Shown here one piece after another: positions 15,087-37,166 of a stretch of 40,309 nucleotides of DNA (position 1 is its first letter; each line of letters begins with the position of its first letter). Both the position numbers and the translations under genes were made by a program. The notes below the pieces were generated by a model, which worked only from the letters and a program-made list of their open reading frames with translations, was not told where the DNA came from and ran no database searches. This stretch comes from Patescibacteria group bacterium (GTDB taxonomy: Bacteria > Patescibacteriota > Patescibacteriia > Patescibacteriales > JAQTRU01), in contig JAQTSG010000005.1 of NCBI GenBank assembly GCA_028711415.1, positions 1 to 40,309 on the forward strand, written 5' to 3'.

Positions 15087-15518
15087 TTAGACCCCAAGTT
15101 CTCCCAAAGCTTCCGCGATACTGCTGCTTTGTTTTTCCGTTCCGCTTTTATATTTATTCCAGATCGTTTCGTCCCAAATTTCTAAGCGGTCATAAAGTCC
15201 GGCAATAATTGATTTCCTTTTTAAGCCGGCAAATTTTCTTAAATAACCCGGCAAAGTAATTCTTCCCTGGTTATCAAATTCAACGTCCATAGCGCCGGCA
15301 AGCATTAGGCGGGAAAAAGCCCGGGCCTTGGCCTGGCTTATCGGCAGTCCGGCTAATTTAGTCGCCAAAACTTCCCACTCTTTTTTCGGATATAAAAAAA
15401 GACAGTTATCCAGTCCCCTGGTCACAACCGCTCCACTTTTAAGTAAAGCTCTAAATTTAGCCGGGACAGCGAGTCTGCCTTTACTGTCCAAGCTGTGTTG
15501 GTATTCTCCGATAAACAT
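15087..15518 (-). CDS. mraZ: Transcriptional regulator MraZ
   Basis: 143 aa; MFIGEYQHSLDSKGRLAVPAKFRALL, LDNCLFLYPKKEWEVL, DNQGRITLPGYLRKFAGL. Confidence 0.97.
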   Translation of the reverse strand: MFIGEYQHSLDSKGRLAVPAKFRALLKSGAVVTRGLDNCLFLYPKKEWEVLATKLAGLPISQAKARAFSRLMLAGAMDVEFDNQGRITLPGYLRKFAGLKRKSIIAGLYDRLEIWDETIWNKYKSGTEKQSSSIAEALGELGV

Positions 15519-16224: not shown

Positions 16225-16599
16225 TTACTTTTTACCAATATTTGGCTCGCTGCTATAAATCGGTTCAATAACATCAAACTTAGAGAACTTTTTGCTTTTG
16301 GTTTTCCCACCTAAACCCTTAACCGGAATTCCTAGGCCGTAGCCCAAAGCATTAGCCGTAACTACCCCGATACGCAAAGCGGTAAAGCCGGTACTGGCGC
16401 CGCTCTTATTCGCGATAACAATCTCGGTGATGGCGGATAGTTTTATTTTTTTCTTCCCCAAAATTTTTTTAATTTCCGGCAATAATTTTTCCGCCTGCGA
16501 ATACTTTGCCTCAAATTCTTTGCGCGCTAAAATCCTCTCCCCTTCTTTTAAAGCGACTTCAATTTTATTCCCGTTAGTTGTGTTAAGATAAAGAATCAT
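16225..16599 (-). CDS. tsaB: TsaB-like tRNA threonylcarbamoyladenosine biosynthesis protein (short form)
   Basis: 124 aa; MILYLNTTNGNKIEVAL...SAITEIVIANKSGASTGFTALRIGVVTANALGYGLGIPVKGL. Confidence 0.8.
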   Translation of the reverse strand: MILYLNTTNGNKIEVALKEGERILARKEFEAKYSQAEKLLPEIKKILGKKKIKLSAITEIVIANKSGASTGFTALRIGVVTANALGYGLGIPVKGLGGKTKSKKFSKFDVIEPIYSSEPNIGKK

Positions 16600-17773: not shown

Positions 17774-19567
17774 TTAATAACTGGCAACTAAAATTTCTTT
17801 TACCTTATCGCCGTTAGTATCAGCTAAAACTAAATCATATTTGCCCCGGAAACTTTTATCCCTGAAAAAAAACTCTTTTTTAAGCCCTCCGTAGGGGGTA
17901 AATATTTTTAAGTGCGCTCCGCCATAAGCCGGCACAGTCACGATTTCCGCTTCCCCGTCGCCGTCAACATCGCCTACCGCTGTTTTTACTCCGCAAACGA
18001 ACTTTGCCGGATAAGCCGAAAAAATACCCACTAGTTTGTTGGCTTTATTATTAAAAATATTTATTAGAGACTTTTGGCCAAAAGCTGCGCCAGCAACTCT
18101 TTCAATCGCGCCATCATTCTTAAAATCAACCGTGCTGGCTTCGGCCTGGGCCTTACTAACTTCCCCCTGGCTGTTTTCTTTTATCCTTTCGCCTGCTAAG
18201 TAGGAATCGCTTTTAAAAGAATAATCGTCATAAGCTATCCGGCCATGGCTGTCAAAAACTTTATAGCTTTTGCCGTTAAGTAAGCCAACCCCATAAATTT
18301 TTAGAATATCCCTTAAAATAATCCCGTCGGTCGGGCCAAGAATTAAATAGCTAACCAAGCCGCCGTCATTAACGACTTTGTCCTGCTCGCCGTTAATTTT
18401 TTCCATCTGATAAGGCAGACCGACTCTGGCTTCCTCAAAATAGGAATTAAGATAAACGGCGCCATTCTGAAAACCGCGGCTCCAGAGGCCTTGAGGATAA
18501 TCCGCCGATGGCCCGTCAATTCTAACCGCCTCTCCCTTGGCCGCGCCCAGACCCACTCCATACTCATCATACCACCAAGTCTGGGAATGGTTGGAAATAT
18601 CGTAATCAAAACTGAAATAAGCGTCCGTTAGCAAGGCGCTCGCCAGAGCCGACCTCATCTTAAGATAATTATCCCGCTTCTGGCTATTTGAATTAATTAT
18701 ATGGATATTGGGTTTAAAATTTAATTCTTTGATTCTCGCGTATGACTGCATTATATCAGACCAAACGCCGCCTGATTCCCATGGGGTAGGAAAATTTTCA
18801 AACATTATACCGTTTAAATAGGGCTGATAGCCGCCATAAGACGAACCATTGCCCATAATAATAAAATCATTGCCGGCAAAGTCGCGGGTAAGGGAAAGTA
18901 TTTTTTTTACGCCGGCAATCCATTTTTCATTTATCTCTTCTTTCGTCTCCGCCGCTCCGTCGCGGTCAATATCAATATTGCCTTCGTTTAACCAGGTTAT
19001 GTCATGCCAGATATTATCATAAAACACCCCGTCCCAAAGGCCGGTAGAAAGAATTTCCCGATAAACGAAGTTCGGCAAAATCGCGTTCCAGCTCGCCCCT
19101 TTAGCCGGGTCCTCGCTTACCATATTTAACATATAAGTATTGGGCCAGGCAGACAGTCTCCAGCCCTGGTTATTCGTCAACCACCAATTGCCGTTAATTT
19201 TAGCCAGAAGCTTCTTCCTCATCTTAGCGTTTTTCATCCCGGCAATATCATATCTCATCTCCGAAGAAGAAATATAAGCTAAAATTATGATATCAGGATT
19301 ATGCTCTCTTATTTTTTTTAAATTATCGCGGCTGTTTTCCTGAACTTCCATATCTAAAACCAGTAGGTCCCACCGCGCCAATTCTTTCGCTTCTTCTTCG
19401 CTTATTTCCCATTTCAAGAAATAATTCGCCAATTTCGGATTTTTATCTTCTTTTACCTTACCGAAAAAAGCGCTGGCCGGGGACGGCAGGAAGAAAAAAG
19501 CAGAAATAATAATAACCAGCAAAAAAAGACTATTTTTCCGCTTTATATTTTTTAGTAATTTTTTCAT
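17774..19567 (-). CDS. Secreted putative glycoside hydrolase (GHL15-like) with C-terminal FG-GAP/VCBS-like repeats
   Basis: 597 aa; signal/TM N-terminus, NPKLANYFLKWEISEEEAKELARWDLLVLDME, LWDGVFYDNIWHDITW, C-terminal VGDVDGDGEAEIVTVPAYGG / LADTNGDKVKEILVASY. Confidence 0.7.
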   Translation of the reverse strand: MKKLLKNIKRKNSLFLLVIIISAFFFLPSPASAFFGKVKEDKNPKLANYFLKWEISEEEAKELARWDLLVLDMEVQENSRDNLKKIREHNPDIIILAYISSSEMRYDIAGMKNAKMRKKLLAKINGNWWLTNNQGWRLSAWPNTYMLNMVSEDPAKGASWNAILPNFVYREILSTGLWDGVFYDNIWHDITWLNEGNIDIDRDGAAETKEEINEKWIAGVKKILSLTRDFAGNDFIIMGNGSSYGGYQPYLNGIMFENFPTPWESGGVWSDIMQSYARIKELNFKPNIHIINSNSQKRDNYLKMRSALASALLTDAYFSFDYDISNHSQTWWYDEYGVGLGAAKGEAVRIDGPSADYPQGLWSRGFQNGAVYLNSYFEEARVGLPYQMEKINGEQDKVVNDGGLVSYLILGPTDGIILRDILKIYGVGLLNGKSYKVFDSHGRIAYDDYSFKSDSYLAGERIKENSQGEVSKAQAEASTVDFKNDGAIERVAGAAFGQKSLINIFNNKANKLVGIFSAYPAKFVCGVKTAVGDVDGDGEAEIVTVPAYGGAHLKIFTPYGGLKKEFFFRDKSFRGKYDLVLADTNGDKVKEILVASY

Positions 19568-20783
19568 AAATATCCATCAAACCTTTATAATAAATTTCCT
19601 TGTTATTTTTTTCTACCACCGTTCTTCTCGCCCGCTCACCTATTTTTCTTCTCGCTTCTTCATCTAAATTTAAAAGGTGGACCATAACTTCGGCTAAACC
19701 GGCAACATCGCCGGCCTCAAATAAAAAGCCGGTTTTACCATCCTCCACTATTTCAGAAAGTCCCCCCATCTTAGCACAGACAACTGCCTTTGTTAAGCTC
19801 ATGGCTTCAATAATATTATAAGGCGCGTTTTCATACCACCGAGAAGGCGCGACTACAAATTCCGCGCCCTTGACTAAACTCCAGAGACCAGGCCCTTCTA
19901 TATAACCAGTAAAAATTACATCCCTGACTAAACCCCTTTCCCTCGCGATTATTTCCAGTTCTTTTTTTTGCGGTCCCTCACCGGCAATAACTAATTTACA
20001 ATCAATTTTTAATAAACTATAAGCTTTTATTAAATCGCTAATCCCCTTCTCTTTACTCAAACGGCCAAAATATAAAATATATTTTCCGGCAATTTCGGTT
20101 TCTTGACTGGGCTGGATAGTGGCGGTCAGAAGAGGATTGGGTAAATAATTTATTTCCTCTTTAAATTCGAATTCCTTAAATTTTTTTATTAAAAACCGGC
20201 TGGGTGAAATAAAAGCGTCAATCTTATCATAAACTTTAAGCCATTTATGCAAATAAGCTTCAAATACGCAAATAAGACTTTTTAAATAAGAGTCTTTTAC
20301 GCATCTAGCAAAAAAGCATTTATAGTATTTATCCGGCCGGCTTTTCTCCCAGATTTTCCCCCGCGCCAACAAATTATAATTGGGACAAATTAATTTATAG
20401 TCGTGTAAAGTCATCACCATGGGAATATTATACTTCTTCAGAGTTTTTATTACAGACGGCGATAGTTGGTGGTAGATATTATGGAGATGAGCTACTTCTG
20501 GCTTAAAATCCTTTATCAATTTTTCTAAATTTATTTGGGCGGAAAAATTATAAATTATCTTTAAAGCGGAATTTATTTTCCCCCGCCAGTTCATTTTTTC
20601 TTTTTCGTAATCTACCTCGTCAATAAAATATTTTAACCAGCGGCTCGGCCGGTTTTTAGGATGGGCCATAGAAAAAAAAGCGATGTCATGCCCATGGCCA
20701 GCTAAAATTCGGGCGGTGTCAAAATAGCATCTTTCCGCTCCGCCTCTTAAATAATGGAATTTGTTTATTAGAAGAATTCTCAT
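19530..20783 (-). CDS. Glycosyltransferase family 4 protein
   Basis: 417 aa; MRILLINKFHYLRGGAERCYFDTARIL...FGRLSKEKGISDLIKAY...APSRWYENAPYNIIEAMS. Confidence 0.92.
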   Translation of the reverse strand: MRILLINKFHYLRGGAERCYFDTARILAGHGHDIAFFSMAHPKNRPSRWLKYFIDEVDYEKEKMNWRGKINSALKIIYNFSAQINLEKLIKDFKPEVAHLHNIYHQLSPSVIKTLKKYNIPMVMTLHDYKLICPNYNLLARGKIWEKSRPDKYYKCFFARCVKDSYLKSLICVFEAYLHKWLKVYDKIDAFISPSRFLIKKFKEFEFKEEINYLPNPLLTATIQPSQETEIAGKYILYFGRLSKEKGISDLIKAYSLLKIDCKLVIAGEGPQKKELEIIARERGLVRDVIFTGYIEGPGLWSLVKGAEFVVAPSRWYENAPYNIIEAMSLTKAVVCAKMGGLSEIVEDGKTGFLFEAGDVAGLAEVMVHLLNLDEEARRKIGERARRTVVEKNNKEIYYKGLMDIYEKITKKYKAEK

Positions 20784-20965: not shown

Positions 20966-22075
20966 TTAGTTGGGCAAGCCATCTTGTTCAGACAATAACC
21001 TTAAATATAAATCCTCGTATTCTTTAACAATTTTTTCTATGGCAAATTTTTCTTTCACTTTATCCTGTAAATTTAATCCCAGTCTTTCCCTTTCTCTTGG
21101 GCGTTCAATCAGATAATTTATTTTTTCCGCCAAGCCACTTACATCCTCTTTTCCAAATAATAAACCATCTTGACCATCTTCTATAATTTCTTTTATTCCG
21201 TCAACTCCGGAAGCGATAACCGGTAGACCAGCCAGTCCCGCTTCCAAAATCGCGATGCCGAATCCCTCCCAGCGGGAAGGCAGGACAAAAATATCTAAAG
21301 AGTTTAAAAATTCTGAAACATCTTTCTGCCAGCCCGCTAATTCCACCCGGCCGGATAGGTTTAATTTTTTTATGAGCTTTTCTAATCTTTTTCTCTCGGC
21401 GCCGTCACCGGCAATAAAACACTTTACTTTTTTATCCGTCTTAGCCAAGGCCGTAATCAAGCCGTCAAAACCTTTTTGCTTAGTAAGCCGACCAACCGAA
21501 CCGACAACAATTTCTTTCTTTTCATTATGGTAATCCCGGTTTTTGTTTAAAAATCTCTTAGCTTCCACGCCGTTATAAATAATTTCTGTTTTATTTCTGT
21601 CTGCTCCCTCAAATTTAACCGCGTAATCCTTTACGGCCCGCGAAACCGCTATGACAGAAGTAGCCAAACCGGCGGTAGACTTTTTAAGGATTTTTTTTAA
21701 AAAACTTTCCTGGTAATTTAAATTATGTTCGGTAGAGACTATAACTTTTACCCCGGCCAGCCGGCCGGCCAGCCGGCCAAAAATATCCGCTCCGAAAAGA
21801 TGGGTATGGATAATATCCGGCTTTTCTTTTTTTAATATTTTTACCAGCTTTAAAAAAACAAACAGGCCTAACTTTTTATCTCCCCCCGCTAAAATAAGCG
21901 GGATGCCTTCTCTTTTTAATTCCATCCCCCAAAAACCAAAACGTTTAAGACAAACAACTTTGCTTTCAAATTTTTCTTTATCCAAATTTTTCACGATATC
22001 AACCAATAGCTTTTCCGCTCCGCCCAGATCCAAAGTCGGGATGATATGGATTATTTTAATTTTTTTCTCCGGCAT
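20966..22075 (-). CDS. Glycosyltransferase family 4 protein
   Basis: 369 aa; IIPTLDLGGAEKLLVDIVKNL...GSVGRLTKQKGFDGLI...PSRWEGFGIAILEAGLAGLPVIAS. Confidence 0.93.
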   Translation of the reverse strand: MPEKKIKIIHIIPTLDLGGAEKLLVDIVKNLDKEKFESKVVCLKRFGFWGMELKREGIPLILAGGDKKLGLFVFLKLVKILKKEKPDIIHTHLFGADIFGRLAGRLAGVKVIVSTEHNLNYQESFLKKILKKSTAGLATSVIAVSRAVKDYAVKFEGADRNKTEIIYNGVEAKRFLNKNRDYHNEKKEIVVGSVGRLTKQKGFDGLITALAKTDKKVKCFIAGDGAERKRLEKLIKKLNLSGRVELAGWQKDVSEFLNSLDIFVLPSRWEGFGIAILEAGLAGLPVIASGVDGIKEIIEDGQDGLLFGKEDVSGLAEKINYLIERPRERERLGLNLQDKVKEKFAIEKIVKEYEDLYLRLLSEQDGLPN

Positions 22076-23447
22076 AGGCCTTATTTTCCCTTATTAAATA
22101 TATTGCCGCCAAAGTTAAAGCGATTGGCAGCCAAAGCTTTCCCTTATAATAAGAAGTGTTAGAAAACTCAAACAAAAATATGCCGAAACTGCCGACTGCT
22201 AAAGGCAGCAGCAACTTTAAATTATTTTTATATCTTTTAAGGGATTTATAAAATAAAGAAAAGATGCAGAAAACAAAAGCGGCAAAAGACAAAACTCCGA
22301 ATAAACCATTTTCCGCCAGTATTTTTTGCCCAAGGCCGTGCGAATCAAGCGGCGCTCCGTATTTCGCCCTGAACCTTACATTATCCGCGACTAAATTTAT
22401 AAACTCGCCCGCGCCCTGCCCGAAAAACGGTTTTTCCTTAAAGGCCTGCCAGGCGATCTCTGTCATCAATATTCTGTTCTCGGTTGAGCTCACGCCAATT
22501 TCATACTGGCTCTGGAGTTTCACCATATAAACAACCAAGGGAGACAAAATAATTAAAGCAACCGCTAAGGTAAGAATAATTTTTTTCCCGTATCTCCGGC
22601 TTTTATAAAAAAGATAAATAGCGGCCTCTAAAAATAAAACCAGCCAAGCGGCGCGGGAAAACGTTCCCAGTAATACCAAGCTTAAAAAAATAACCAGGAG
22701 ATTAATTGCCCGGCCGGCGGATCCTTCTTTAAACCAATATTTTAAAGCTAAAGAAAAAAATATAGCGACCAGCAAAACTTCCGCGATTAAATTATGGTTT
22801 TCGCCAATCGGGTAAATTCCGGAAATCCCGATGGGCCGGACGCGGACAAATTCATTATACCAGTCCTGCTGGCTTAAAGAAACTAACCCGACAACGGCCA
22901 CCAGCAAGCCGGAGATTAGAAAGCAGATTAGGCAATTTCTTAAGGTCTTTTTTTCTCTTATGATGTTCACCGGCAGAACAACATAAGCCAGATAAAAAAA
23001 CATTATCCAGCGAAGGGAATACCAGATATTGGTAAAAATATCGCCGGCTAAAATATTGCTGATGCTCACGCTTAGAAAAAATATGAGGAAAGGCAAGGCC
23101 AAGGGTAATTTTATTTCCTTTAACTCATCTTTGGAAAAAAATAAAAAACGGAAAAAAATTCTTAAAAAATAAGCCGCTAAAACGACTATCGCCAATAAAT
23201 CAATAAACGGGATTACTAAATTGCCAACGTTAAAATTTAAATCAATAACCGGCAGAAATAATATCATTAAATAAAGTCCAATCTCGGGTTTAATCGCTAA
23301 GATAGCTAAAACCAAAAAAGCTAAAAAAATAGCGGCCGCGACCAAGGGAGAAAAACAAAACAGAACCGAGCTTAAAGCAAAAGTTAAAGCTAAAAAACCC
23401 GTTATAACCCACTTATCCCTCTTATTTTCCCAAGTAAAATAATTCAC
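22056..23447 (-). CDS. O-antigen ligase / Wzy-like polymerase
   Basis: 463 aa, polytopic; GENHNLIAEVLLVAIFFSL, LLGTFSRAAWLVLF, FGQGAGEFIN...DSHGLGQKILAENGLFGVLSF. Confidence 0.87.
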   Translation of the reverse strand: MNYFTWENKRDKWVITGFLALTFALSSVLFCFSPLVAAAIFLAFLVLAILAIKPEIGLYLMILFLPVIDLNFNVGNLVIPFIDLLAIVVLAAYFLRIFFRFLFFSKDELKEIKLPLALPFLIFFLSVSISNILAGDIFTNIWYSLRWIMFFYLAYVVLPVNIIREKKTLRNCLICFLISGLLVAVVGLVSLSQQDWYNEFVRVRPIGISGIYPIGENHNLIAEVLLVAIFFSLALKYWFKEGSAGRAINLLVIFLSLVLLGTFSRAAWLVLFLEAAIYLFYKSRRYGKKIILTLAVALIILSPLVVYMVKLQSQYEIGVSSTENRILMTEIAWQAFKEKPFFGQGAGEFINLVADNVRFRAKYGAPLDSHGLGQKILAENGLFGVLSFAAFVFCIFSLFYKSLKRYKNNLKLLLPLAVGSFGIFLFEFSNTSYYKGKLWLPIALTLAAIYLIRENKAYAGEKN

Positions 23448-23496: not shown

Positions 23497-23529
23497 ATAA
23501 AAAAAGTCAAGGTATCTCTACCTTGACTT
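23497..23529 (-). terminator. Intrinsic terminator overlapping the stop of the GHL15-like lipoprotein gene
   Basis: Minus strand AAGTCAAGGTAGAGATACCTTGACTTTTTTT; the TAG stop is inside the stem. Confidence 0.85.
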
Positions 23530-24609
23530 GTATATAATTTCTCCTTTCCTTTCTCCCGGCCAAACCTTGACAATGGCCTTGGAAAACTCCCTTTGCCAGG
23601 AACCGTCAAGCATTTCCCGGGCCGGACCAAGCGCCTTCCCGATTTCCTGATACTCGGGGAATCTCCTGATCAGGCCCTGGCCATAAGCGTAATAACCGTC
23701 GAAAAGCAGGGCGCTTGATAGGATAAATAACCTGTGCTCGGGATTGTTGGGGACCTGCCTGGCCTGGATAATGGAAAAGGGGCCGGTTTGAAAATAATTC
23801 GTCATTGACTTATACCAACCACCGGCCTTATCATCTCCCAAATAATCATTCGGGAACTCTTCAAACATCTTACCGTCAAGGATATTAAGGAACTCTAACG
23901 TTCCTTTATTCCCAACCATAAGAAAATTCGGGCCTTTTGCTTCTCGGATAACCCGGAGAAATTCCTGGATCCCCAAGGACCAGGAAAAATCAAGGATGGA
24001 AGTGTCGTCATTTTCTCCATTATTACCCGAGTCAATCCCTTTGTTTCTCCCGTAAGTCCCGATCCAGGAAACATCCCCGCCGGAATTATCCATGAAGTAG
24101 CCATCCCAGACGGAATTGAATAAGACTTTTTCCAAAAGAAACCGGGCAATCCACCGGTTATAGCGCGCTCCATTTACCTCGGGGCAGACGGCGCTTAGGT
24201 TAAGCATCCGCATACCTGGCCAAAAAATTACGGGCTCGCCATCTGGCTGGAGAAGCCACCATTTCCCGGCTGCTTCCACCTTTTCCAGAACTTCTTTTTG
24301 CAAAGTCCTGTTTGCCACCATTGGATAAAATAATTCCATTGGGTTGGAATAGGCCAGAAGCTTTACTTCCGGATTCCTTTTTTTAATCGCCCGAAGGTTA
24401 TCCGGATTGTTGACCAGATTTTCCATATCCGCTACTACCAGGTGAAAATTGGCCAAAGAGTCGGCTTCGTCTTTGGTCATTGTCGGCGAAGTCCAATAAG
24501 CGGCTAGTTTGGGATTGCCGCCTAACTTTGCCTTTCTTGCTATAATAGAACCGCAGCCACCGGCAATTATCGCAATCAGGAGCAAGAGACACATCCTTTT
24601 TATCTTCAT
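23518..24609 (-). CDS. Putative GHL15-like glycoside hydrolase, lipoprotein
   Basis: 363 aa; lipobox MCLLLLIAIIAGGCGS; NPKLAAYWTSPTMTKDEADSLANFHLVVADMENLVNN; VWDGYFMDNSGGDVSW; paralog of 17774-19567. Confidence 0.7.
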   Translation of the reverse strand: MKIKRMCLLLLIAIIAGGCGSIIARKAKLGGNPKLAAYWTSPTMTKDEADSLANFHLVVADMENLVNNPDNLRAIKKRNPEVKLLAYSNPMELFYPMVANRTLQKEVLEKVEAAGKWWLLQPDGEPVIFWPGMRMLNLSAVCPEVNGARYNRWIARFLLEKVLFNSVWDGYFMDNSGGDVSWIGTYGRNKGIDSGNNGENDDTSILDFSWSLGIQEFLRVIREAKGPNFLMVGNKGTLEFLNILDGKMFEEFPNDYLGDDKAGGWYKSMTNYFQTGPFSIIQARQVPNNPEHRLFILSSALLFDGYYAYGQGLIRRFPEYQEIGKALGPAREMLDGSWQREFSKAIVKVWPGERKGEIIYKSR

Positions 24610-24724
24610 CGCAGTCCCCTTTCAGTTGGGATATAATTTTAAAAAAATTTTCAAAGGAACAAAAAATTGATTTTTTATATTAACATAACGGCAAAACTAA
24701 GTCAATTGCGTGTAAATATTTTAT

Positions 24725-24759
24725 AAAAAAAGGCGTCAGATGCAAGCATCTAACGCCTT
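24725..24759 (-). terminator. Intrinsic terminator
   Basis: Minus strand AAGGCGTTAGATGCTTGCATCTGACGCCTTTTTTT. Confidence 0.85.
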
Positions 24760-24781
24760 GAATTCAATTGTCCCGAACCGG

Positions 24782-25219
24782 TTATTTTTCCGGAACCGGA
24801 ATCGGCTTGAGGCGGAAATTGTAGCCGCCTCGATCATTGTCGACGATATCCTCTTCCCTTACCGCCTTAAGGAGAGAGGAATCAAGAGTGAGCAAGGCAT
24901 GAGGAATATACCTATTCCCCCCGATAGCGAAACAAAAAGAGAATTCTTTCTCCAGCGGAAGCATCACCCCCGCCTTGAAGAAATAATACTTTTTGTCCGC
25001 GGAGAGAGACATCTCCTCATCCCTCCATTCCGTCAAATCCGCCCTGAATTTGGGCTTTTCTCCCTCCACCGCGTCCACGAGCTTCTTGGCGACAAAAAAA
25101 GTCCCGTCCTCATACACGCCATAGAGGATGCTATCGGGCGGAGAGACGAATTCCTGCGCCTGGACTACGAAGCCAAGGGCGAAGAGGAAAAAGACGGCGA
25201 AGCAAAAGATTCTTTTCAT
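24782..25219 (-). CDS. Secreted protein with one GYNF module
   Basis: 145 aa; signal peptide MKRIFCFAVFFLFALGFVVQAQE; C-terminal ...DNDRGGYNFRLKPIPV resembles modules in 31830-32900. Confidence 0.65.
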   Translation of the reverse strand: MKRIFCFAVFFLFALGFVVQAQEFVSPPDSILYGVYEDGTFFVAKKLVDAVEGEKPKFRADLTEWRDEEMSLSADKKYYFFKAGVMLPLEKEFSFCFAIGGNRYIPHALLTLDSSLLKAVREEDIVDNDRGGYNFRLKPIPVPEK

Positions 25220-25233
25220 ATCCCTGTTCCTTT

Positions 25234-26664
25234 CTATCTGAAAAACTTTTTTTGTGGTTCAAAATCCAGAGTGACACCAATAGAATTGCCATTAGCGTCT
25301 CGGAACTTTGAATTTCTGGTATTCTTAAATTCAACTCCAAATTTAAAAATATCTTCTTTGCTGCCTATACAAAATCCAACAATGCTAGTAATGCCATAAT
25401 CTTCGTAAGCATAGCTGGATTTTGCCACGATGCCGCTCTTAAAACCATCAAGGTCCCAGAGATAATATCTGGACCCGAAATTGACGCTCCCTTTATTCCC
25501 GGCCGGATCATTCCTTCTTGGAATCCGGCTATTGGCCCACCAGCTCTTTTTGCTGTGGCCAACATCAAAAATGAAATCAAGCCAAGTCTCAAATCTCCTT
25601 TCCTTGAAAATTTCAGCGCCATTACCATAAGAGTCAGCTGTAAGGCCGAAGTAAAGGATGGAATCATCCTGCTCGGCTTTATATCCTTTTCCGTCCCGGC
25701 CCTGGTCATGTTGCCGGCCAAGCTGTAAGGACGATGTAAAACGGTAATTTTTCATGGTCATGTCCAAAACCGGACCGACTGTAGCCCGATATCCATCGTA
25801 ACTAAAACCGCTTCCGGTTTTTCCTTGCCATCCGTTGGCGATACCGCCGATACCGAAATGGATATTGGTTAAAAAAGCGCCCTTGGTGGAAAAATAAAAG
25901 TTGCTTTTGCCGCCGTAATAATTACTTCCGCCCGCTCCTTGCAGAGGGAAATAATGTCCGGCCCAGAGATAAGTCTCATGGCGGCGAACAAAAACAGATT
26001 CATCCTTTTTCTCCGGGGGAACTAATGACGGAGGCGAAGCAGGCGGTTTTTTTGTTTCCAGTTTTGGTTCTTTTGGTTTATCCGGTTTCTTAAAAACCGG
26101 CTTATCTGGAATTTTTTCCTTCCACCAAGCCCAGTTATTGCAGATTGTCGGGGCAATCAGATAATAAACAGAATCGCCTACCTGACAAGAATACCTTTTT
26201 GCCTCATAGTAGACGGTGGAATCCGGCCAGGCCGCTACCACGTTATTGACCAGACGGTAATTGTTAAAAACCATCTGGCAAAAGCGTTCGCCTTTGGCCA
26301 GATAGTAATCTTCGCTATCCCCTCTTTCTACCCGCGCGATTAAAAACGCTTTCACGCTGCCAGGCAGAGAAAACATCTTGATCGCTTTGCGGAAATCTCT
26401 TTTACCAAAAGGATCGCCCCCGGGGTTTTTCCAAAGGAAAACTCCGGCTTCCGGAACTTCCGGAATCCTTAATTCCTGCCCGGTCCTTAATAAGGTCGGG
26501 TCGGAAATTTCCGGGTTGGCCGCCAGAATCTGCTGCCAGGTCAAACCATACTTCTTGGCGATCTGCGCCAAGGTTTCATTGGCTTTAACCATATAGGTTT
26601 CTTCGGCCTGCGCCAAAGCCGATACAGCCATAGCCACCAGTATTATCAACACAAACTTTTTCAT
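25234..26664 (-). CDS. LysM-domain secreted protein with C-terminal beta-barrel-like domain
   Basis: 476 aa; signal peptide, LysM YMVKANETLAQIAKKYGLTWQQILAANPEISDPTLLRTGQELRIP, Pro/Lys linker, C-terminal half of alternating Gly/aromatic strands. Confidence 0.7.
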   Translation of the reverse strand: MKKFVLIILVAMAVSALAQAEETYMVKANETLAQIAKKYGLTWQQILAANPEISDPTLLRTGQELRIPEVPEAGVFLWKNPGGDPFGKRDFRKAIKMFSLPGSVKAFLIARVERGDSEDYYLAKGERFCQMVFNNYRLVNNVVAAWPDSTVYYEAKRYSCQVGDSVYYLIAPTICNNWAWWKEKIPDKPVFKKPDKPKEPKLETKKPPASPPSLVPPEKKDESVFVRRHETYLWAGHYFPLQGAGGSNYYGGKSNFYFSTKGAFLTNIHFGIGGIANGWQGKTGSGFSYDGYRATVGPVLDMTMKNYRFTSSLQLGRQHDQGRDGKGYKAEQDDSILYFGLTADSYGNGAEIFKERRFETWLDFIFDVGHSKKSWWANSRIPRRNDPAGNKGSVNFGSRYYLWDLDGFKSGIVAKSSYAYEDYGITSIVGFCIGSKEDIFKFGVEFKNTRNSKFRDANGNSIGVTLDFEPQKKFFR

Positions 26665-26875
26665 GCTCGTCGTCCTTCTTATAGATTGTGAAAGAACGGA
26701 AAATCAGATTATTAAATTTAGAAAAAACTCCTTATTTCTCCCAAATTCAATCATCCAAGTTGACCCCATATTTCTAACCCCGTTAGAAATAATCTTCTAA
26801 GCGAGGCTAACAGGGTTGATATCTTAAGTTAACAAATTTCCCAATTTTTGTCAATAGCGTGTTTCTTGCAACAAA

Positions 26876-26907
26876 GGGGTTCGACACCCTATAGGGTGTC
26901 GAACCCC
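26876..26907. repeat. 32-bp perfect palindrome GGGGTTCGACACCCTATAGGGTGTCGAACCCC
   Basis: Read directly; self-complementary throughout. Confidence 0.95.
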
Positions 26908-26929
26908 CAATACTTTTTATATTATTTCC

Positions 26930-27045
26930 TGCCTGCTCGCCTCTCCCGCTTAGCGGGATTTGGCCAGTCTCGCTCGCCTCGCTTTCGCTCCGACGAAGCG
27001 GGCCAGCTCGTCTATGCGGGCGAAGCGAGCCGGTAGGCAGGTAGA
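26930..27045. repeat. GC-rich nested inverted-repeat element
   Basis: CCTGCCTGCTCGCC... / ...GCGAGCCGGTAGGCAGG outer arms with internal GCTTTCGCTCCGACGAAGC-type hairpins. Confidence 0.6.
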
Positions 27046-27054
27046 ATTTGCGGC

Positions 27055-27104
27055 AAAAAAAAGAAGACGGGCGCTGTGGATTAAACACACAACACACGTC
27101 TTCC
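27055..27104 (-). terminator. Intrinsic terminator downstream of lipoprotein gene
   Basis: Minus strand GAAGACGTGTGTT...GCCCGTCTTCTTTTTTTT. Confidence 0.7.
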
Positions 27105-27126
27105 TGTAATAATCTATATAAATGTG

Positions 27127-27651
27127 CTACTTCTGCGGAACGGGATGATGTTCCCCCGTTCTGATGTTGAAAACGAACTCATAACCCCACTCCCCAGCTT
27201 CGTCCTGCCGGGCGTGCGGGTCGTCGGAAGATATAGTCAATCTTGTTCCACCTTCCGTTTCGGTCCAGACCCGGACCGTGTACCACTCCCCTTCATCAAC
27301 GAAGAACGAGGGAACCAGTACATACCCCCAAACCCGGGGATAATGATTATTCCCGTCAACACGGTTATCGGACACCGAGAAAAAACTCCAGGCGCTATCC
27401 GCGTTGACGAAAATCTGAAACTCAACAAACATCTGGAGCGACGAGTCTTTCATCGCCGGTTCCAGAATCGGTAATGAAACACCTATTCCCTGTCCCTGGA
27501 CAATCGCTTCTACCCGGGAAGGTCCTCTCACATCCTCCCCGGAAACCGTTTTCGTCGCTTGAACCGGCGGCTGAACCGACGGCTTGGGTCCGCAGCTGGC
27601 GAAAACCAGAGCAAGGACACAAGCGAAAATTGCTGACAAGAAAACTTTCAT
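27127..27651 (-). CDS. Hypothetical lipoprotein
   Basis: MKVFLSAIFACVLALVFASCGPKPS lipobox; start placed at the second Met of the ORF-track entry. Confidence 0.65.
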   Translation of the reverse strand: MKVFLSAIFACVLALVFASCGPKPSVQPPVQATKTVSGEDVRGPSRVEAIVQGQGIGVSLPILEPAMKDSSLQMFVEFQIFVNADSAWSFFSVSDNRVDGNNHYPRVWGYVLVPSFFVDEGEWYTVRVWTETEGGTRLTISSDDPHARQDEAGEWGYEFVFNIRTGEHHPVPQK

Positions 27652-27794
27652 TGCCTTTTCCTCCATGAACTGAGGGTGAAGGGTGATATGATCTGATTAC
27701 TTTTTATCTATATCAATTAAATTTGCTGCAGAAAAAACAGTTTTGCTTCCCCTATAAGATAATTTACTTCTTCTTAGCTTGCCCTTCTCTCCAT

Positions 27795-27895
27795 CTCAGC
27801 GCCTATCGGCGGCTTAAGCTAACCTATCGGTCAAGCTTAAACGAATCTCCCTATCGGAAGATCTTTTGTCAGCTACCCTATCGGGAAAGCTGCTA
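27795..27895 (-). repeat. Tandem array of four short hairpins with conserved apex CCGATAGG
   Basis: CCTATCGG (plus strand) at 27802, 27823, 27850 and 27877, each flanked by short complementary arms. Confidence 0.7.
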
Positions 27896-27978
27896 AGACA
27901 AAAAGTGGCCTCAAGCTATGAAGCAAGTTATCCTAATGGATGGTAAGAAATTTTTTCTTTTTTTCAGGTTGCTCCCTT

Positions 27979-29727
27979 TTACTCCGATGCTGAAAAAACC
28001 GGCACCGGGGGCAGATTATTGAAGAGAACCGGAACGGAAACTGAACCGTCGTTGGTTTTCTTAACACCTGTCTGAGTAGAATCGGGTTTAGGCGCGGGTG
28101 TCGGAACAGTTGGGGAAACCGGTTCCGCGTCTTTGACCAGGGCCTTCACCTTGGCGACCTGGGAAAGGGGGTTAAAAACATATTCGTATTTCTGAATGTG
28201 TTTTTCCCTCTCTTTATCCGCTCCGGCGAACTTTGCTTCCTTAAAAGAAGCGGCTGCCGAATTAGATTCCGAAGGATTCTTTTTTGTATAATCCTCCAGA
28301 TTGGTGTATTCGGTAATATCGCCGTCCCCCTCCAGCACGTACATCGTGCCGGCTTTGCCGACCCTTACCTCCTCGCCGGTTTTGAAATTTACGTAACCGG
28401 TTTTAATGGCCCTCCGATGCGCTTCTGCCCCGATCCATTTCTTGAGAGAAGTGGAATCGGACAAGGTGCCGGTATAACCCCAGAAAACAGGGTTAAGCGC
28501 AATCTGCCTCATCAGGGGGTTTTCCACGCCGTCGCCATTACAGATGACGGCTCTTTTCGCATACTCGTCGTCCACGGGCAGAAGATGGAAAACCGCAATC
28601 GTCCATTTCTGGACAACTGTGGTATCTTGGGCCACGAGCGTGAACTTCTTGGCGCCATCCGAAAAGTCAAGCGTGTCGCCGAGGTCGGGAACCATTTTCC
28701 CGAAGTCCCCTTTCCAATCCGTAACTATCACGGAATTCAAAGGAACGTCCGGCGCTACTGCTAGCCGGACCGTATGGGCAACCGAATCAATTTCGGCTTC
28801 CTGGCCGTTCAAAACGAATTTGGTAAGATTAATCGTCTTGTCCGGCTTAGCAACTACCACGGTTATCTTCCACTCTTTGACGGTTTTGCCGTCTTCGGAA
28901 GTGACCGTGCAAATCGCCGTACCCGGAAAATCTCCCTTGAGCGTATAGGTTGCACCCAGGGACAACTCCATCTTGAAGAAATCTTCCTTTATCTGGCCGG
29001 GTTTGTAAACGTCATATATAGCCGCGAGGTGAACCTCGCGCTTCTCGGCGTTTACCTCGTTTTTCCCTGACGTATCTGCTATTTCCGAGAGCCAGCATTT
29101 CACGATATCGGCCCCGGTGTTCGCGGCAGCTTTGGTAACCGTGACGGTCCAGTCCTTGGTAGTTACCCCGTCCTGGGCCGTGACCGTGTAAGTCGCCGAC
29201 CCGCTAGAGAAGTCAACAACCGTTCCGGACGCCGGATTGATGGTCGCGCCCTCGGATATTACGAGGGCCGGAGCCATCTTAGTCAGGTCAGTGCTGTACA
29301 TAACCTCAACCGTAATTTTTCCGGCCGGGTCAATGTTCACCTTGGTCTGGCCACCGACCTGGAAATCCGTGATCTCGGCTTCCGTGTTCGGCGCCAGTCT
29401 GACGGTGACTGCCAGCTTATTGGCGATCTTCCCGTTCTCCGACGTAACCACGTAGGACTCGAACCCGTCGGATAAATCGACCGGGGTACCGGATGCCGGA
29501 GAAACAGTTGCTTTCGGCGAAACCACGATGTTCACAACCGCCTTGGTCAAATCCGTGCCGTAAGGCACTTCTACTTCGACCGAGCCGTTTTTGACGGTGG
29601 TCAAGTCCGCCTTGACGCCCGCGACTTCGAGCGCGGTGATTTCCGCCAGCTTGCTTTTGCAACCAGCAAAGCTGACGATAGCGAGAACAAACGCTATCAC
29701 GATAACAATGGGGTTCCACTTCTTCAT
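27979..29727 (-). CDS. Lipoprotein with four tandem Ig-like (DUF5018-like) repeats
   Basis: 582 aa; lipobox VLAIVSFAGCKS; repeated pattern ATxxPASGTxVDxSxGxxxYxVTxxDGxxxxxxxVTV. Confidence 0.65.
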   Translation of the reverse strand: MKKWNPIVIVIAFVLAIVSFAGCKSKLAEITALEVAGVKADLTTVKNGSVEVEVPYGTDLTKAVVNIVVSPKATVSPASGTPVDLSDGFESYVVTSENGKIANKLAVTVRLAPNTEAEITDFQVGGQTKVNIDPAGKITVEVMYSTDLTKMAPALVISEGATINPASGTVVDFSSGSATYTVTAQDGVTTKDWTVTVTKAAANTGADIVKCWLSEIADTSGKNEVNAEKREVHLAAIYDVYKPGQIKEDFFKMELSLGATYTLKGDFPGTAICTVTSEDGKTVKEWKITVVVAKPDKTINLTKFVLNGQEAEIDSVAHTVRLAVAPDVPLNSVIVTDWKGDFGKMVPDLGDTLDFSDGAKKFTLVAQDTTVVQKWTIAVFHLLPVDDEYAKRAVICNGDGVENPLMRQIALNPVFWGYTGTLSDSTSLKKWIGAEAHRRAIKTGYVNFKTGEEVRVGKAGTMYVLEGDGDITEYTNLEDYTKKNPSESNSAAASFKEAKFAGADKEREKHIQKYEYVFNPLSQVAKVKALVKDAEPVSPTVPTPAPKPDSTQTGVKKTNDGSVSVPVLFNNLPPVPVFSASE

Positions 29728-29799
29728 TGCATTACTCCTTTCGGATTTGAGAGGGGCTAGTTTTTAGGCCAGCCCCTCCTTGAGTTGAATGTTTAACCA

Positions 29800-30669
29800 C
29801 TAAACTATTTTAGTAACCTTTTTCTGATCCAGGAGAAGGGTAACCTGTGATGCAAACTTATCGCCCTCAAGACATCGTTTCAAAGAATTAACGATATCTC
29901 TTTTGTGCGACATTTTGATGTTTTCCTTTTCGTCTCCCGTATTCGTGAAAGGTGAAATAAAAACTTCTTCCGTTTTATTTCCAATGGTTCTCCATTTACG
30001 CAAAACCTTGACCCGGAAATTTCCCTTGCTTGTTGTTTTTATTTCCAACTCCTCTACTTTTACATTCCAAGAGGTTTCCTCGGAAGCGGTCGGTTTTCTC
30101 CTGAGCTTCTTTAAAAGAATAACGGCCACCAAAGAAATGATCAGGAGAGATACTATAACTACCAAAACTCTCCGGAATGAACGTCCTGCAGCTTCCGCTT
30201 CCGCTTTATCTGCCGAATCTACCAAAGTTTTTTTGCTGGCAGACGCAGATAAAGAATCAAGCTTTGATTTAATCTCTGCGAAGTTTTTGTCAGGAGTGAT
30301 CTTTATAAATTTGTACTCCACGACTACCTGGCGGCTATTTTCTCCGTCTCCCTTTGGGACGACGTTGATTTTCGCCCCGGGAAATTCAGAAGCGAGCACG
30401 CCTTCAACCGCTTCAGCCCTATTTTTTGAGAGCTGGTCATTCTGCGCGGAGATACCGCGGTTGTCAGCTGAGCCAATTATGGTTATGACCAAATTGGTTG
30501 AACCCGGCTGCGCGTCTTTTATTTCCGCCACCAGAATCTTGACCTGCACTTCGATTTCGCCTTTGACCGCGAACTCGTCGGTTCCATAACCGGAGATTAA
30601 TCTTTCATCGGCCGCAATGTTGGCAACGATGGCCAACAGGATGAACATAACCAAACTAAACCGTTTCAT
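29800..30669 (-). CDS. OmpA-like domain protein with internal TM helix and C-terminal basic domain
   Basis: 289 aa; signal peptide, IIGSADNRGISAQNDQLSKNRAEAVEGVLASEFPG, TM RVLVVIVSLLIISLVAVILL followed by KKLRRK. Confidence 0.7.
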   Translation of the reverse strand: MKRFSLVMFILLAIVANIAADERLISGYGTDEFAVKGEIEVQVKILVAEIKDAQPGSTNLVITIIGSADNRGISAQNDQLSKNRAEAVEGVLASEFPGAKINVVPKGDGENSRQVVVEYKFIKITPDKNFAEIKSKLDSLSASASKKTLVDSADKAEAEAAGRSFRRVLVVIVSLLIISLVAVILLKKLRRKPTASEETSWNVKVEELEIKTTSKGNFRVKVLRKWRTIGNKTEEVFISPFTNTGDEKENIKMSHKRDIVNSLKRCLEGDKFASQVTLLLDQKKVTKIV

Positions 30670-30674
30670 GTAAT

Positions 30675-30830
30675 ACCTCCTGCCCTATCGGGCGGTTTCA
30701 TGCCTTATCAGGCATGGGTTAAAAACTCCTTGCCCAGTCAGGCAAGTTTTATTCAGTTGTCAAAGATCCGGCCTTTATTATTTCTGCTCCGATTACGGGC
30801 AGCCCCGCCTTAAGCGGAGATATAATTTAG
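30675..30830 (-). repeat. Leader hairpin series upstream of the OmpA-like gene
   Basis: TGCCCTATCGGGCGG, ATGCCTTATCAGGCAT, TTGCCCAGTCAGGCAA, CTGCTCCGATTACGGGCAG and CCGCCTTAAGCGG in sequence. Confidence 0.55.
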
Positions 30831-30849
30831 ACCTTCAAACCTAGGCCGT

Positions 30850-31677
30850 TTAATTGCCCAAGTTTGACTGCCCAAAATTATTTTCGTCTTCTAAGGTTTC
30901 TAATTTGTCTTCTTCCAGGTTCCGGCCTTCATCTTCGTAAAAATTCGGGCTGAGGAAACGAGCGTATTCCTTTTTTTCTAAAATACTGCCGACGCTTTCC
31001 CAATTATTTTCTTCCTCCCCTCTTTCTGCTGTTCCACTTCCGTTTCCAGCCGAAAATTTATATTCTTCATCCGCGGAAAAAAGATAGATATAAATTAAAG
31101 ACAAAAAGAAACCGAGAATAACCGCGCCGATAAAATTTAAAATAACATTCGGCTTGACCGGCTTCCGCGAAGTTAACGGCTCATCAATGATTTTTACATT
31201 CACGTTATCTCCGTAGCCGTGATAAAGCCGGTGGCTGGCTTGCATGGAAAAAGCGATAGCGCGGGCAATCTGGTCGGCCTGAAGTTTATCCGGATGATAA
31301 ACCGCGACGGAAATTATGCCGGTATCGCTAATAGTTTTAGCCGCCACGGTTTTTTTCCATTCCTTCATCCGTTTCTCCGTGTCTTGGCCGAAATAATCTT
31401 TATTGATTTTAAAACCGGCTTTATCAACTTTTTCAAAAAATGAATTGGAATAAATCACTTTAGCTAAAATCCCGCTTAAGTATTCGTTTGATTTTGAAGC
31501 GACGTAGGGGTCCGTGTTAGCGCCAAAATTATGGATTACCAGCATCTTAAAGCTGGTTTCATATTTAAATGGCTGGGTAAAAGTAAAACCCGCCGCCAAT
31601 AGAACAAAAAGGATGACGATTATCATTATCGCCAACTTCCTTTTGAGAATTAAATTAAGAAAACTATCTAAATTCAT
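30850..31677 (-). CDS. Wzz/chain-length-determinant-like protein
   Basis: 275 aa; two TMs flanking an extracytoplasmic domain; NVKIIDEPLTSRKPVKPNVILNFIGAVILGFFLSLIYIYL. Confidence 0.8.
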   Translation of the reverse strand: MNLDSFLNLILKRKLAIMIIVILFVLLAAGFTFTQPFKYETSFKMLVIHNFGANTDPYVASKSNEYLSGILAKVIYSNSFFEKVDKAGFKINKDYFGQDTEKRMKEWKKTVAAKTISDTGIISVAVYHPDKLQADQIARAIAFSMQASHRLYHGYGDNVNVKIIDEPLTSRKPVKPNVILNFIGAVILGFFLSLIYIYLFSADEEYKFSAGNGSGTAERGEEENNWESVGSILEKKEYARFLSPNFYEDEGRNLEEDKLETLEDENNFGQSNLGN

Positions 31678-31774
31678 AAAAATTCTTTAAAAATAGGCCT
31701 TTTTTATTAATTAATATTTAACTTAACATAATAGCATATTTATTAAACTATGTCAAGGATAAAATAAAAATAAT

Positions 31775-31806
31775 AAAAAAGCCCGGGGTTTTATTAACCT
31801 CGGGCC
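31775..31806 (-). terminator. Intrinsic terminator
   Basis: Minus strand GCCCGAGGTTAATAAAACCCCGGGCTTTTTT. Confidence 0.85.
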
Positions 31807-31829
31807 TGTTTCATCGTTTTGCCGCTCTT

Positions 31830-32900
31830 TTACTTCAAAAGCGACATTTTTATCGTTTGGGAGAAATCTCCAGCTTTTACCGTGCAGAAATACACGCCGC
31901 TGGAGAATTTTTCCCCGTTCCAGGTAAGCGAGTAGCTACCGGCTTCCCGGAAACCATCGGTGATTACCTCCACCCTTTGCCCGGTTACATCTCGGATATC
32001 AACCATTATGTTTTCAGCTTTGGGAAGGGTAAAGTTGATACTGGTCGCCGGATTAAAGGGATTGGGATAATTTTGGAACAACCCAAAAACCTTCGGTCCT
32101 TCACTTTCAACCGCCACCACCTTGCCGCTGTCAACAGCGGTAACGGAGAAATTATATCCCCCTTTGCCATTGTTAATGGTATCGCTTTTATTGACAAGCT
32201 CATCCATAATGATACCGGGGAAAAACTTCCCGTTATCACTTACGCAATAAAAAACAACTTCCTCTTCTTTGGGAAAAACATAACCGCTGTCAGCTTGGCA
32301 GGAGAAAAAGCCGTTTTCCAACTTTCCTTTCTTCAGTTGCCAGGAAGTCGGTTCGCCGGCAAAACTTACGGACGTACCGCCGGCAAAAGAAACCATTTCC
32401 TCCGAGATAAATATCCGGCCGTTCCCGGCTCCGTAGTGAGTGGAGTCAAAGGACGTTGGCTTCAATTTATCAAACACGGGAAGAACGGAAAAATTGTAAC
32501 CAGTATAGTCGCTATTGCTTACCACGTCAGTATTGTTATTAGCGATCATGCCGAAAATATTACCCGGGAGGTACCAGTCGTTGCTGGTAAAGACATAGAA
32601 GATGACCTTCTGGCCTTTAGGGAAGATATATCCCTTTTCGGCCGAGCAGATAAAAAATCCGTCCTTCAGAATTCCCTCTTTCGGTTTCCAGCCAGTGGGG
32701 TCTCCGTTGAAAAACACCTTTGTACCCTCCGGCCCCTCGAAGTACAGACTGTCCGTTCGCACCATCATCAGCGACACGAACATCTCGTTGTCTTTGATGC
32801 CGTAATTCCATGGCTCAAAATAATGTTGTGCCGCGTCGATTACCGAAGAAAAAGTAACTATTACCGAAACAAAACTTAGGAAAGCAATAAGCCGTTTCAT
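31830..32900 (-). CDS. Secreted protein with two GYNF modules and a T9SS/FlgD-like C-terminal tail
   Basis: 356 aa; signal peptide; two repeats ending DYTGYNFSVLPV and GKGGYNFSVTAV; C-terminal NYPNPFNPATSINFTLPKAENIMVDIRDVTGQRV...GVYFCTVKAGDFSQTIKMSLLK; strong SD AGAGGAGG. Confidence 0.8.
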   Translation of the reverse strand: MKRLIAFLSFVSVIVTFSSVIDAAQHYFEPWNYGIKDNEMFVSLMMVRTDSLYFEGPEGTKVFFNGDPTGWKPKEGILKDGFFICSAEKGYIFPKGQKVIFYVFTSNDWYLPGNIFGMIANNNTDVVSNSDYTGYNFSVLPVFDKLKPTSFDSTHYGAGNGRIFISEEMVSFAGGTSVSFAGEPTSWQLKKGKLENGFFSCQADSGYVFPKEEEVVFYCVSDNGKFFPGIIMDELVNKSDTINNGKGGYNFSVTAVDSGKVVAVESEGPKVFGLFQNYPNPFNPATSINFTLPKAENIMVDIRDVTGQRVEVITDGFREAGSYSLTWNGEKFSSGVYFCTVKAGDFSQTIKMSLLK

Positions 32901-33045
32901 GGTAAATCCTCCTCTAGGGGAATGTTTGGGTTATTTTTTATTTCTTACCGGTTTACTTATCTCTTTATGTAAAGAACCGCTGAAGAATTTTAAAAGACTA
33001 ATAAATGACAATACCATACCCGTGAACAGATGTCAACCACGATCC

Positions 33046-33164: not shown

Positions 33165-33848
33165 CTAGCTTATCCCTATCTCGTCAACGACTATAATTTT
33201 ACTTCCTTCCAGAATGCTATAAAGAAAAACATCCGTAATATCTTTGCGGTATTTAAATTCTTTTGTATCCATCAAAGTATAGTTAATCTGCCGGCCCATT
33301 TCTCTTTCTAAATCTTTAACCGTTCTGGCCAGCCGGTTTTTATTTATCCGGCCGACAATAAGCATATCGGTCGGCGCCTGACGATTATTCATAAAAACGC
33401 CGGTTAAAATAAAGAGTTTCGGGCTGCCCAGTTTATTAAGCTTCTTAATAAAGTCTTTTTCATACAAAACCTGGGACTTAACGATTAAAGCTTTTATCTC
33501 CTCAAATAAAACAAAATTTCTATTGGCCTTATAATATTTCTTCTCGCCGCCGCTTAAATTCGCCACTTCAATTTTTTTCGGAACCACGTTTACTATTTCG
33601 CCCCGCAATAACTTTTCTAAATTCTTTCTTTCTTCAAAGGATTGCTCGCTAACCTTCTCCTCCCCTATCCCCGTATTAGAAATTAACAGGCCAAACTCTT
33701 CCAAATTTTCCAGCTCTCTCCGCACGGAATTAACCTGCAGTTTTAAATCGCGGGCCAGCTGCCTAATATAATACTTTTCTTCAGGATGAAGCAGAAATAA
33801 TTTTAAAATTTTTACCCTTGTATTGGAACCGAATAATTTCCCCAGCAT
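33165..33848 (-). CDS. Winged-helix HTH regulator with nucleotidyltransferase-like C-terminal region
   Basis: 227 aa; NTRVKILKLFLLHPEEKYYIRQLARDLKLQVNSVRRELENLEEFGLL. Confidence 0.75.
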   Translation of the reverse strand: MLGKLFGSNTRVKILKLFLLHPEEKYYIRQLARDLKLQVNSVRRELENLEEFGLLISNTGIGEEKVSEQSFEERKNLEKLLRGEIVNVVPKKIEVANLSGGEKKYYKANRNFVLFEEIKALIVKSQVLYEKDFIKKLNKLGSPKLFILTGVFMNNRQAPTDMLIVGRINKNRLARTVKDLEREMGRQINYTLMDTKEFKYRKDITDVFLYSILEGSKIIVVDEIGIS

Positions 33849-36367: not shown

Positions 36368-37162
36368 ATGAAGTATAAATCTTATTACAAATACGGCAAT
36401 TTTTCTCTTTTTCATGGTAATTGTCTTGATATTTTAGCTGAAATTCCAGAAAATTCGGTTGATATGATTTTCGCCGATCCGCCATATTTGTTATCAAACG
36501 GAGGATTTACCTGTCATGCTGGTCAAATGGTAAGCGTAAACAAGGGGCAATGGGATGTAAGCAATGGATTAAAGAAAGACTTTGAATTTCATTTAGCTTG
36601 GATTGAAGCCTGCAAAAGAGTTTTGAAACCAGGTGGCACTCTTTGGATTAGCGGAACTTATCATTCAATCTATCAATGCGGTTTTGCATTACAGGTCGCC
36701 AAATTTCATATTTTAAACGATATAGCGTGGTTTAAACCAAATGCCTCGCCAAATTTATCTTGCCGCTTTTTTACCGCTAGCCATGAAACGCTTATTTGGG
36801 CGCGCAAAGATAAAAACGGCAAGCATAAATTTAATTATAAGTTAATGAAAGACGGAAATTGGCCGGAGGATTTTATTAAAAAACAGGGACTCCAAATGAG
36901 AAGTGTTTGGGCGATTTACCCGCCAAGAAATGGAGAAAAAAAATTCGGCAAGCACCCAACGCAAAAACCGATTGATTTATTAGTCCGAATTATTTTAGCC
37001 AGCACCAACAAAGACGATTTGATTATAGATCCGTTTACGGGCTCGTCTACGACGGGTTTAGCCGCTTTTTTAAATGACCGTAAATTTATTGGCATTGATT
37101 TAGAAAAAAAATATTTAGATTTATCCGTAAAAAGATTAAAGGATTTAGAAAAATCAAAATAA
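36368..37162 (+). CDS. Site-specific DNA adenine methyltransferase (DpnA-like, beta class)
   Basis: 264 aa; FADPPYLLSNGGFTCHAGQMVSVNKGQWD, FKPNASPNLSCRFFTASHETLIWARK, GKHPTQKPIDLLVRIILASTNKDDLIIDPFTGSSTTG. Confidence 0.9.
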   Translation: MKYKSYYKYGNFSLFHGNCLDILAEIPENSVDMIFADPPYLLSNGGFTCHAGQMVSVNKGQWDVSNGLKKDFEFHLAWIEACKRVLKPGGTLWISGTYHSIYQCGFALQVAKFHILNDIAWFKPNASPNLSCRFFTASHETLIWARKDKNGKHKFNYKLMKDGNWPEDFIKKQGLQMRSVWAIYPPRNGEKKFGKHPTQKPIDLLVRIILASTNKDDLIIDPFTGSSTTGLAAFLNDRKFIGIDLEKKYLDLSVKRLKDLEKSK

Positions 37163-37166
37163 TAAT

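Follow-up and report, generated by a model that had tools for sequence, protein, structure and literature searches.

Exopolysaccharide exporters, such as those of alginate, Pel and poly-N-acetylglucosamine (PNAG), pair a barrel with a degrading enzyme. In the AlgE-AlgK-AlgL, PelB-PelC-PelA and PgaA-PgaB systems a barrel, a lipoprotein and a glycan-degrading enzyme are grouped with polymer synthesis, and in O-antigen and capsule loci an interior with Wzz, Wzy and glycosyltransferases is swapped between fixed chromosomal flanks. Besides, barrels tethered to the wall have been described as SlpA and OmpM (PMC9388160, PMC10628300). Here we have analysed a 40,309-bp stretch of DNA (the window), which is the entire contig JAQTSG010000005.1 (C24) of the Patescibacteria genome GCA_028711415.1 (1.10 Mb, 68 contigs, 96.9% complete), and which carries a GC-rich island of genes for exported proteins together with genes for Wzz, Wzy and glycosyltransferases. 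We favour, with a probability of about 0.48, that this is a Wzz/Wzy-type cassette for the export or anchoring of a surface polysaccharide in this Patescibacteria order, located at a single chromosomal site (between the helix-turn-helix (HTH) regulator/rplJ-rplL side and mraZ-dcw) and replaced as a unit. It resembles the AlgE, PelB and PgaA exporters in its grouping of parts, but differs from them in its Wzz/Wzy-type synthesis, in the lack of a recognised TPR protein and of a known outer membrane, and in its unrelated sequences. Patescibacteria have almost no experimental handles, and such a cassette would supply named targets exposed at the surface and a site of serotype-like exchange.

The features of the locus, all on the minus strand, are the following.

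15087..15518 (-): conserved flank, mraZ-type gene that opens the dcw genes
16596-17771, 19530-20783 and 20966-22075 (-): three GT4-type glycosyltransferases of the same polysaccharide locus (PF00534/PF13439 for 16596 and 20966; other loci hold relatives of each of the three)
17774..19567 (-): a further GHL15 protein, bearing FG-GAP repeats and lying beyond the GC-rich part (PF14885)
22056..23447 (-): Wzy/O-antigen ligase-type polymerase (PF04932)
23518..24609 (-): GHL15-type glycoside hydrolase, lipoprotein (PF14885; the gene in locus L077 is 52% identical and lies between barrel/GYNF and Wzy)
24782..25219 (-): small secreted GYNF-module protein (homologue immediately downstream of the L077 barrel gene; the module recurs in the tail protein)
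25234..26664 (-): LysM-barrel protein with signal peptide, LysM, middle beta domain, proline-rich linker and C-terminal predicted 12-strand beta-barrel (PF01476; AlphaFold2, Foldseek, dyad alternation)
27127..27666 (-): small lipoprotein (profile matches in L078, L098, L100 and L080; a relative adjoins the barrel gene in G041 and G038)
27797..27900 (-): leader hairpin array with differing stems and a shared GATA tetraloop, upstream of 27127-27666
27979..29727 (-): lipoprotein with DUF5018 immunoglobulin-like repeats and a C-terminal GVENPLMRQI...EAHR..GYV domain (PF16410, PF22243; domain matches)
29800..30669 (-): bitopic protein with signal peptide, OmpA-type wall-binding domain, transmembrane helix and conserved cytosolic 'SPFT' domain (PF00691)
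30680..30750 (-): leader array with loops GACT, GATA and GATA, upstream of the OmpA/transmembrane gene; the final hairpin abuts the Shine-Dalgarno sequence
30850..31677 (-): Wzz-type chain-length determinant, co-polymerase with two transmembrane helices (PF02706/PF13807; TIGR01006 partial; 13-row alignment)
31830..32900 (-): secreted protein with two GYNF modules and a C-terminal tail like FlgD-Ig/type A of the type IX secretion system (T9SS) (PF18962, PF13860; TIGR04183, 37 bits)
33165..33848 (-): conserved flank, HTH (ArsR-like) regulator

Composition, conservation and exchange of the locus

An earlier note, made from the sequence of the window, had described a GC-richer island in which seven exported proteins surround one Wzz-like gene, and this was confirmed. 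All seven proteins appear to be exported, and Pfam and NCBIfam recover the GHL15 lipoprotein, the GYNF and LysM proteins, two lipoproteins (one with DUF5018), the OmpA domain, the T9SS-type tail and a single Wzz, with two corrections: the tail gene lies beyond Wzz, and another GHL15 gene stands outside the island, between the glycosyltransferase genes 16596-17771 and 19530-20783. The GC content per 1-kb window is 0.43-0.55 in the island and mostly 0.33-0.44 in the flanks. The per-gene means are 0.49 versus 0.40 for the remaining genes of the window, and the gap is largest at third codon positions (GC3 0.56 versus 0.43). Codon usage agrees with this, as pooled codon GC3 is 0.55 in the island versus 0.44 in 90 other genes of the same genome and 0.44 in 13 ribosomal genes; the ribosomal value means that ribosomal-type codon optimisation does not account for the GC excess, and we rejected it. 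Within their own genome five of the seven island genes reach or exceed the 94th GC3 percentile, and the other two, LysM-barrel and OmpA-like, lie near the 80th. The excess is found in all of the 13 distinct loci compared with their neighbours (Wilcoxon p 2.4e-4), and its level follows the GC3 of the host (Spearman 0.68, p 0.011, 13 loci). Relatives with the same genes at host-like composition, which had been proposed as evidence against a horizontal origin, were not seen; every genome compared shows the same GC excess.

The gene set recurs, with the same GC excess, in independent genomes from many families of the order, and Wzz, Wzy, the regulator and mraZ are again its flanks. Gene maps reveal a recurrent order of HTH regulator, Wzz, OmpA/transmembrane protein, lipoprotein, LysM-barrel, small secreted protein, Wzy, glycosyltransferases and mraZ, some genomes being without certain members or carrying replacements. 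Throughout the order Wzz serves as the anchor gene of the cluster, and named records with the same Wzz-centred locus are Patescibacteria, labelled mostly Falkowbacteria or Patescibacteria/Parcubacteria group. The tail gene between the regulator and Wzz is an addition peculiar to the window. The GC-rich island is native to this Patescibacteria lineage, and single domains in it may have an ancient ancestry in the Fibrobacteres-Chlorobi-Bacteroidetes (FCB) group.

Comparison with the same-genus genome G001 indicates that the regulator-to-mraZ interval is exchanged as a whole within the genus. Identity is 92% for the regulator and 95% for the mraZ gene but only 40% for Wzz, and in a Wzz tree (with few strongly supported branches) the window copy groups apart from the same-genus one. 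The congeners G001 and G002 have in common another barrel protein, without LysM, which is 79% identical between them and absent from the window; in G001 it adjoins a polysaccharide lyase family 14 (PL14) lipoprotein, where the window has the GHL15 hydrolase instead. Because the flanks are 92-95% identical while Wzz, barrel and hydrolase/lyase differ between congeners, the interval behaves like an O-antigen locus, and Wzz, Wzy and glycosyltransferases are indeed together in the window; unlike the known O-antigen and capsule loci, it is linked to dcw/rplJL in Patescibacteria and carries a barrel module. The barrel phylogeny, in which proteins of one family group together only in part and branches are long, is too weak for dating transfers. 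A second Wzz context was also observed (L109-L127), mostly downstream of a run of 2-4 genes for proteins of about 350, 253, 253 and 375 aa and without the barrel module, which occurs in other Patescibacteria including Magasanikbacteria.

The LysM-barrel protein and its partners

The AlphaFold2 model of the LysM-barrel protein (13 sequences, mean predicted local distance difference test score (pLDDT) 80.8) places LysM at residues 22-67, followed by a mixed middle domain, a disordered proline-rich linker and, at residues 228-468, twelve antiparallel strands with pLDDT mostly above 85. Among PDB structures Foldseek ranks autotransporter beta-domains highest (Hbp, E 6e-8; BrkA, target TM-score 0.52), followed by porins and other outer-membrane barrels. 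The hydrophobic/polar alternation of the strand faces is 3.04, versus 1.88 +/- 0.23 in within-strand shuffles (maximum 2.69 of 1000); the hydrophobicity scale was adjusted by hand, and therefore the comparison with the shuffles counts more than the value itself. An even number of antiparallel strands and alternating lipid-facing residues are thus predicted, as in outer-membrane beta-barrels. The protein shares with autotransporters and inverse autotransporters (intimin) the 12-strand barrel and the best structural matches, and with intimin a LysM before the barrel. It differs from them in that the structural scores are weak (target TM-score no higher than 0.52), in that BAM, the barrel assembly machinery, was not found, and in having no passenger of type Va or Ve, as only LysM and a 110-residue domain precede the barrel and nothing sizeable follows it. 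Relatives with E 7e-7 or better and a match extending past LysM are present in 16 of 97 genomes of the order (17 of 98 with its own). In a 384-genome sample of the class the full-length family is found only in this order; outside it, one class member gave a weak match to the barrel part and another matched the first part of the middle domain only. There is no Pfam family for the barrel or the lipoprotein families, and in a viral structure library the barrel protein matched generic barrels and LysM only.

The OmpA-like protein had been taken as a hallmark of diderm bacteria. The OmpA-type wall-binding domain is real, with its Asp and Arg wall-binding positions retained in most homologues, but domain scan and alignment found none of the 8-strand N-terminal barrel of OmpA outer-membrane proteins, and the protein is instead a single-pass one with a cytosolic domain in which an SPF motif is constant. 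The outer part varies among relatives, being OmpA, LysM (L078) or a coiled coil (L066:9082-9897), or is missing (L071), and the transmembrane and SPF part persists. Another lipoprotein family, absent from the window, is associated with the barrel: it occurs in 9 of 98 genomes, 8 of them within the 17 strong-barrel genomes (hypergeometric p 1.3e-6), and its gene adjoins the barrel gene in the mapped loci.

The T9SS-like tail noted before is genuine, as TIGR04183 gives 37.1 bits against a cut-off of 23. Proteins with type A-like tails are found in 16 of 98 genomes of the order, for instance L085:3723-5009 (contig C4 of the same genome); no T9SS was detected, in a search for SprA without a working control. 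The GVEx..RQI...EAHR.AI..GYV domain, the C-terminal 150 aa of 27979-29727, is also present in very long proteins of the order (L075, L052-L058), and in L075 a protein with it directly adjoins the HTH regulator.

In the mechanism that we propose from sequence and models, Wzz and Wzy would build a glycan at the cytoplasmic membrane, and the protein with an OmpA (or LysM, or coiled-coil) part, transmembrane helix and SPF domain would connect this complex both with the wall and with a partner in the cytosol. Bound to peptidoglycan by its N-terminus, the LysM-barrel would act farthest out, as a conduit for the glycan or as an anchor that holds it. The lipoprotein hydrolase (GHL15 here, PL14 lyase in the sister species) would trim the glycan, and the small secreted and tail proteins could decorate the surface. 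We favour this export or anchoring module because of the Wzz/Wzy synteny, the wall-binding parts, the hollow-type barrel, the exchangeable hydrolase/lyase and the fact that Wza was not found: Poly_export, the protein of Wza-dependent capsule export, had no match in 60 relatives while controls gave matches, which leaves the exit step unfilled. The exchange of hydrolase and lyase between congeners was counted for export, as it parallels the pairing of barrel and degrading enzyme in the alginate, Pel and PNAG exporters.

Alternative readings of the cassette

Several results weigh against an export or anchoring module. Omp85/BamA (PF01103) was over the cut-off in none of the 60 relatives, a set with the own genome and 11 further carriers of the barrel; matches were obtained in seven control genomes, and a single Pfam model could miss a divergent insertase. 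The BAM machinery typical of an outer-membrane barrel protein was thus not found by the PF01103 search. Groundwater cells of the candidate phyla radiation (CPR) have no outer membrane by cryo-transmission electron microscopy (PMC7906910), which leaves a membrane barrel without a known membrane, and the barrel is present in no more than about 17% of the genomes sampled. Furthermore, the model of the barrel-associated lipoprotein is low to moderate in confidence (pLDDT 66) and its fold has no PDB match. Comparative genomics of CPR has also found no PilQ or TonB system (PMC6744442), and their type IV secretion system is of the monoderm type (PMC12102498). Patescibacteria are considered monoderm, and a syntenic, conserved, wall-binding barrel for which no BamA is found turns monodermy into a testable question: either there is an unseen outer layer with an unrecognised insertase, or the barrel falls outside the known rules, possibly at host contact. 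A bolder proposal, which we consider doubtful, is that a BamA-less branch of Patescibacteria builds wall-anchored membrane-type barrels, in a cryptic outer lipid layer with its own insertase or planted in the outer membrane of a host, the expression of the module being marked by leader hairpin arrays with genome-specific loops (see below) that some factor would read.

Considerably less probable than the export or anchoring module is the reading that the LysM-barrel protein is the counterpart of OmpM/SlpA of Negativicutes and Deinococcus-Thermus and holds an unrecognised outer lipid layer or a surface layer to peptidoglycan, with the polysaccharide genes as mere neighbours. The domain logic is the same, a wall-binding N-terminus, a linker and a C-terminal outer-membrane-type barrel. 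However, the Pfam scan found LysM and no SLH domain at the N-terminus, the linker is proline-rich rather than a coiled coil, the strands are 12, no Omp85 was found, and the barrel is co-inherited with Wzz, Wzy and polysaccharide enzymes, with a patchy distribution that would be odd for a structural tether.

It is rather improbable that the protein is a host-facing device, with its LysM end in the wall of an epibiont and its barrel end in the outer membrane of a diderm host, assembled by the BAM of the latter. CPR cells do attach to Gram-negative hosts (PMC7906910), the barrel is of membrane type without an own BamA found, and a motif like a beta-signal is seen most often in the last strand (11 of 16). 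However, this motif is weak and its enrichment is not clean, as strand 4 has it in 9 of 16, no host is known for this species, and the polysaccharide synteny would be left unexplained.

A recently imported FCB (Bacteroidota-like) surface and T9SS island is very unlikely and was rejected, in spite of DUF5018, the T9SS-type tail and the GC excess. The cluster is spread over the families of the order, every genome compared shows the same excess, rising with host GC3, and neither Omp85 over the cut-off nor SprA was found in 60 relatives, although for SprA no control genome gave a match either. Of the horizontally acquired surface system suggested earlier, a cell-surface system at a mobile locus is supported, and its import from FCB is not. 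The other suspicion of the earlier note, a chimeric assembly or binning artefact, is hardly credible despite the sharp composition change at both edges, since G031 has Wzz, barrel, GYNF protein, GHL15 and Wzy in the order of the window (so the 23.5-kb junction is natural), G010 retains the regulator together with Wzz and the OmpA protein (which makes the opposite side natural as well), these assemblies derive from unrelated projects, and the flanks are syntenic with G001.

Hairpin arrays and neighbouring features

Genes of the island had been described as having their own terminators or hairpin leaders, and strong hairpins were found; the arrays are additional to that description. The hairpins upstream of 27127-27666 and of the OmpA/transmembrane gene have differing stems and the common loop GATA. 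The loop changes between genomes: G041 has GATT ahead of both its OmpA/transmembrane-type and barrel genes, G069 has GAGC and G038 has AAAA at two loci. Further leader arrays are found in L078 (5584-5690 and 7551-7630), L084 (upstream of 7882), L080 and L081. At least two hairpins with the same tetraloop were present in 10 of 33 cluster leaders versus 3 of 199 control leaders (Fisher p 2e-7, in a test devised after the pattern was seen and on related genomes that are not independent). In cluster cases L072 and L079 and in controls L077 and L083 one hairpin is repeated exactly instead of varying in its stem, and the third control is a lipoprotein gene of G038 that carries the loop of that genome. 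In a scan of 387 kb of the own genome (about 35%), such arrays stood ahead of a gene only at the two leaders of the window. The arrays resemble those of the CsrA/CsrB type in that several hairpins share a loop while their stems vary, but they differ in that the loop varies between genomes, they are in mRNA leaders, none of the loops (GATA, GATT, GAGC, GAAT, AAAA, ATTT) has the GGA of CsrA-bound leaders, and an Rfam search of the leaders gave nothing credible. It is possible that they define an RNA-level regulon of surface-protein genes, and the matched loops point toward a control of these genes not described previously.

A perfect 32-bp palindrome, GGGGTTCGACACCCTATAGGGTGTCGAACCCC, was also found at 26876-26907, inside a long, strongly structured intergenic stretch. 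Finally, at 36368-37811 on the plus strand, between the 33962 gene and rplL, a DNA methylase (PF01555) adjoins a MutH/MvaI-like endonuclease, and both probably form a restriction-modification pair.

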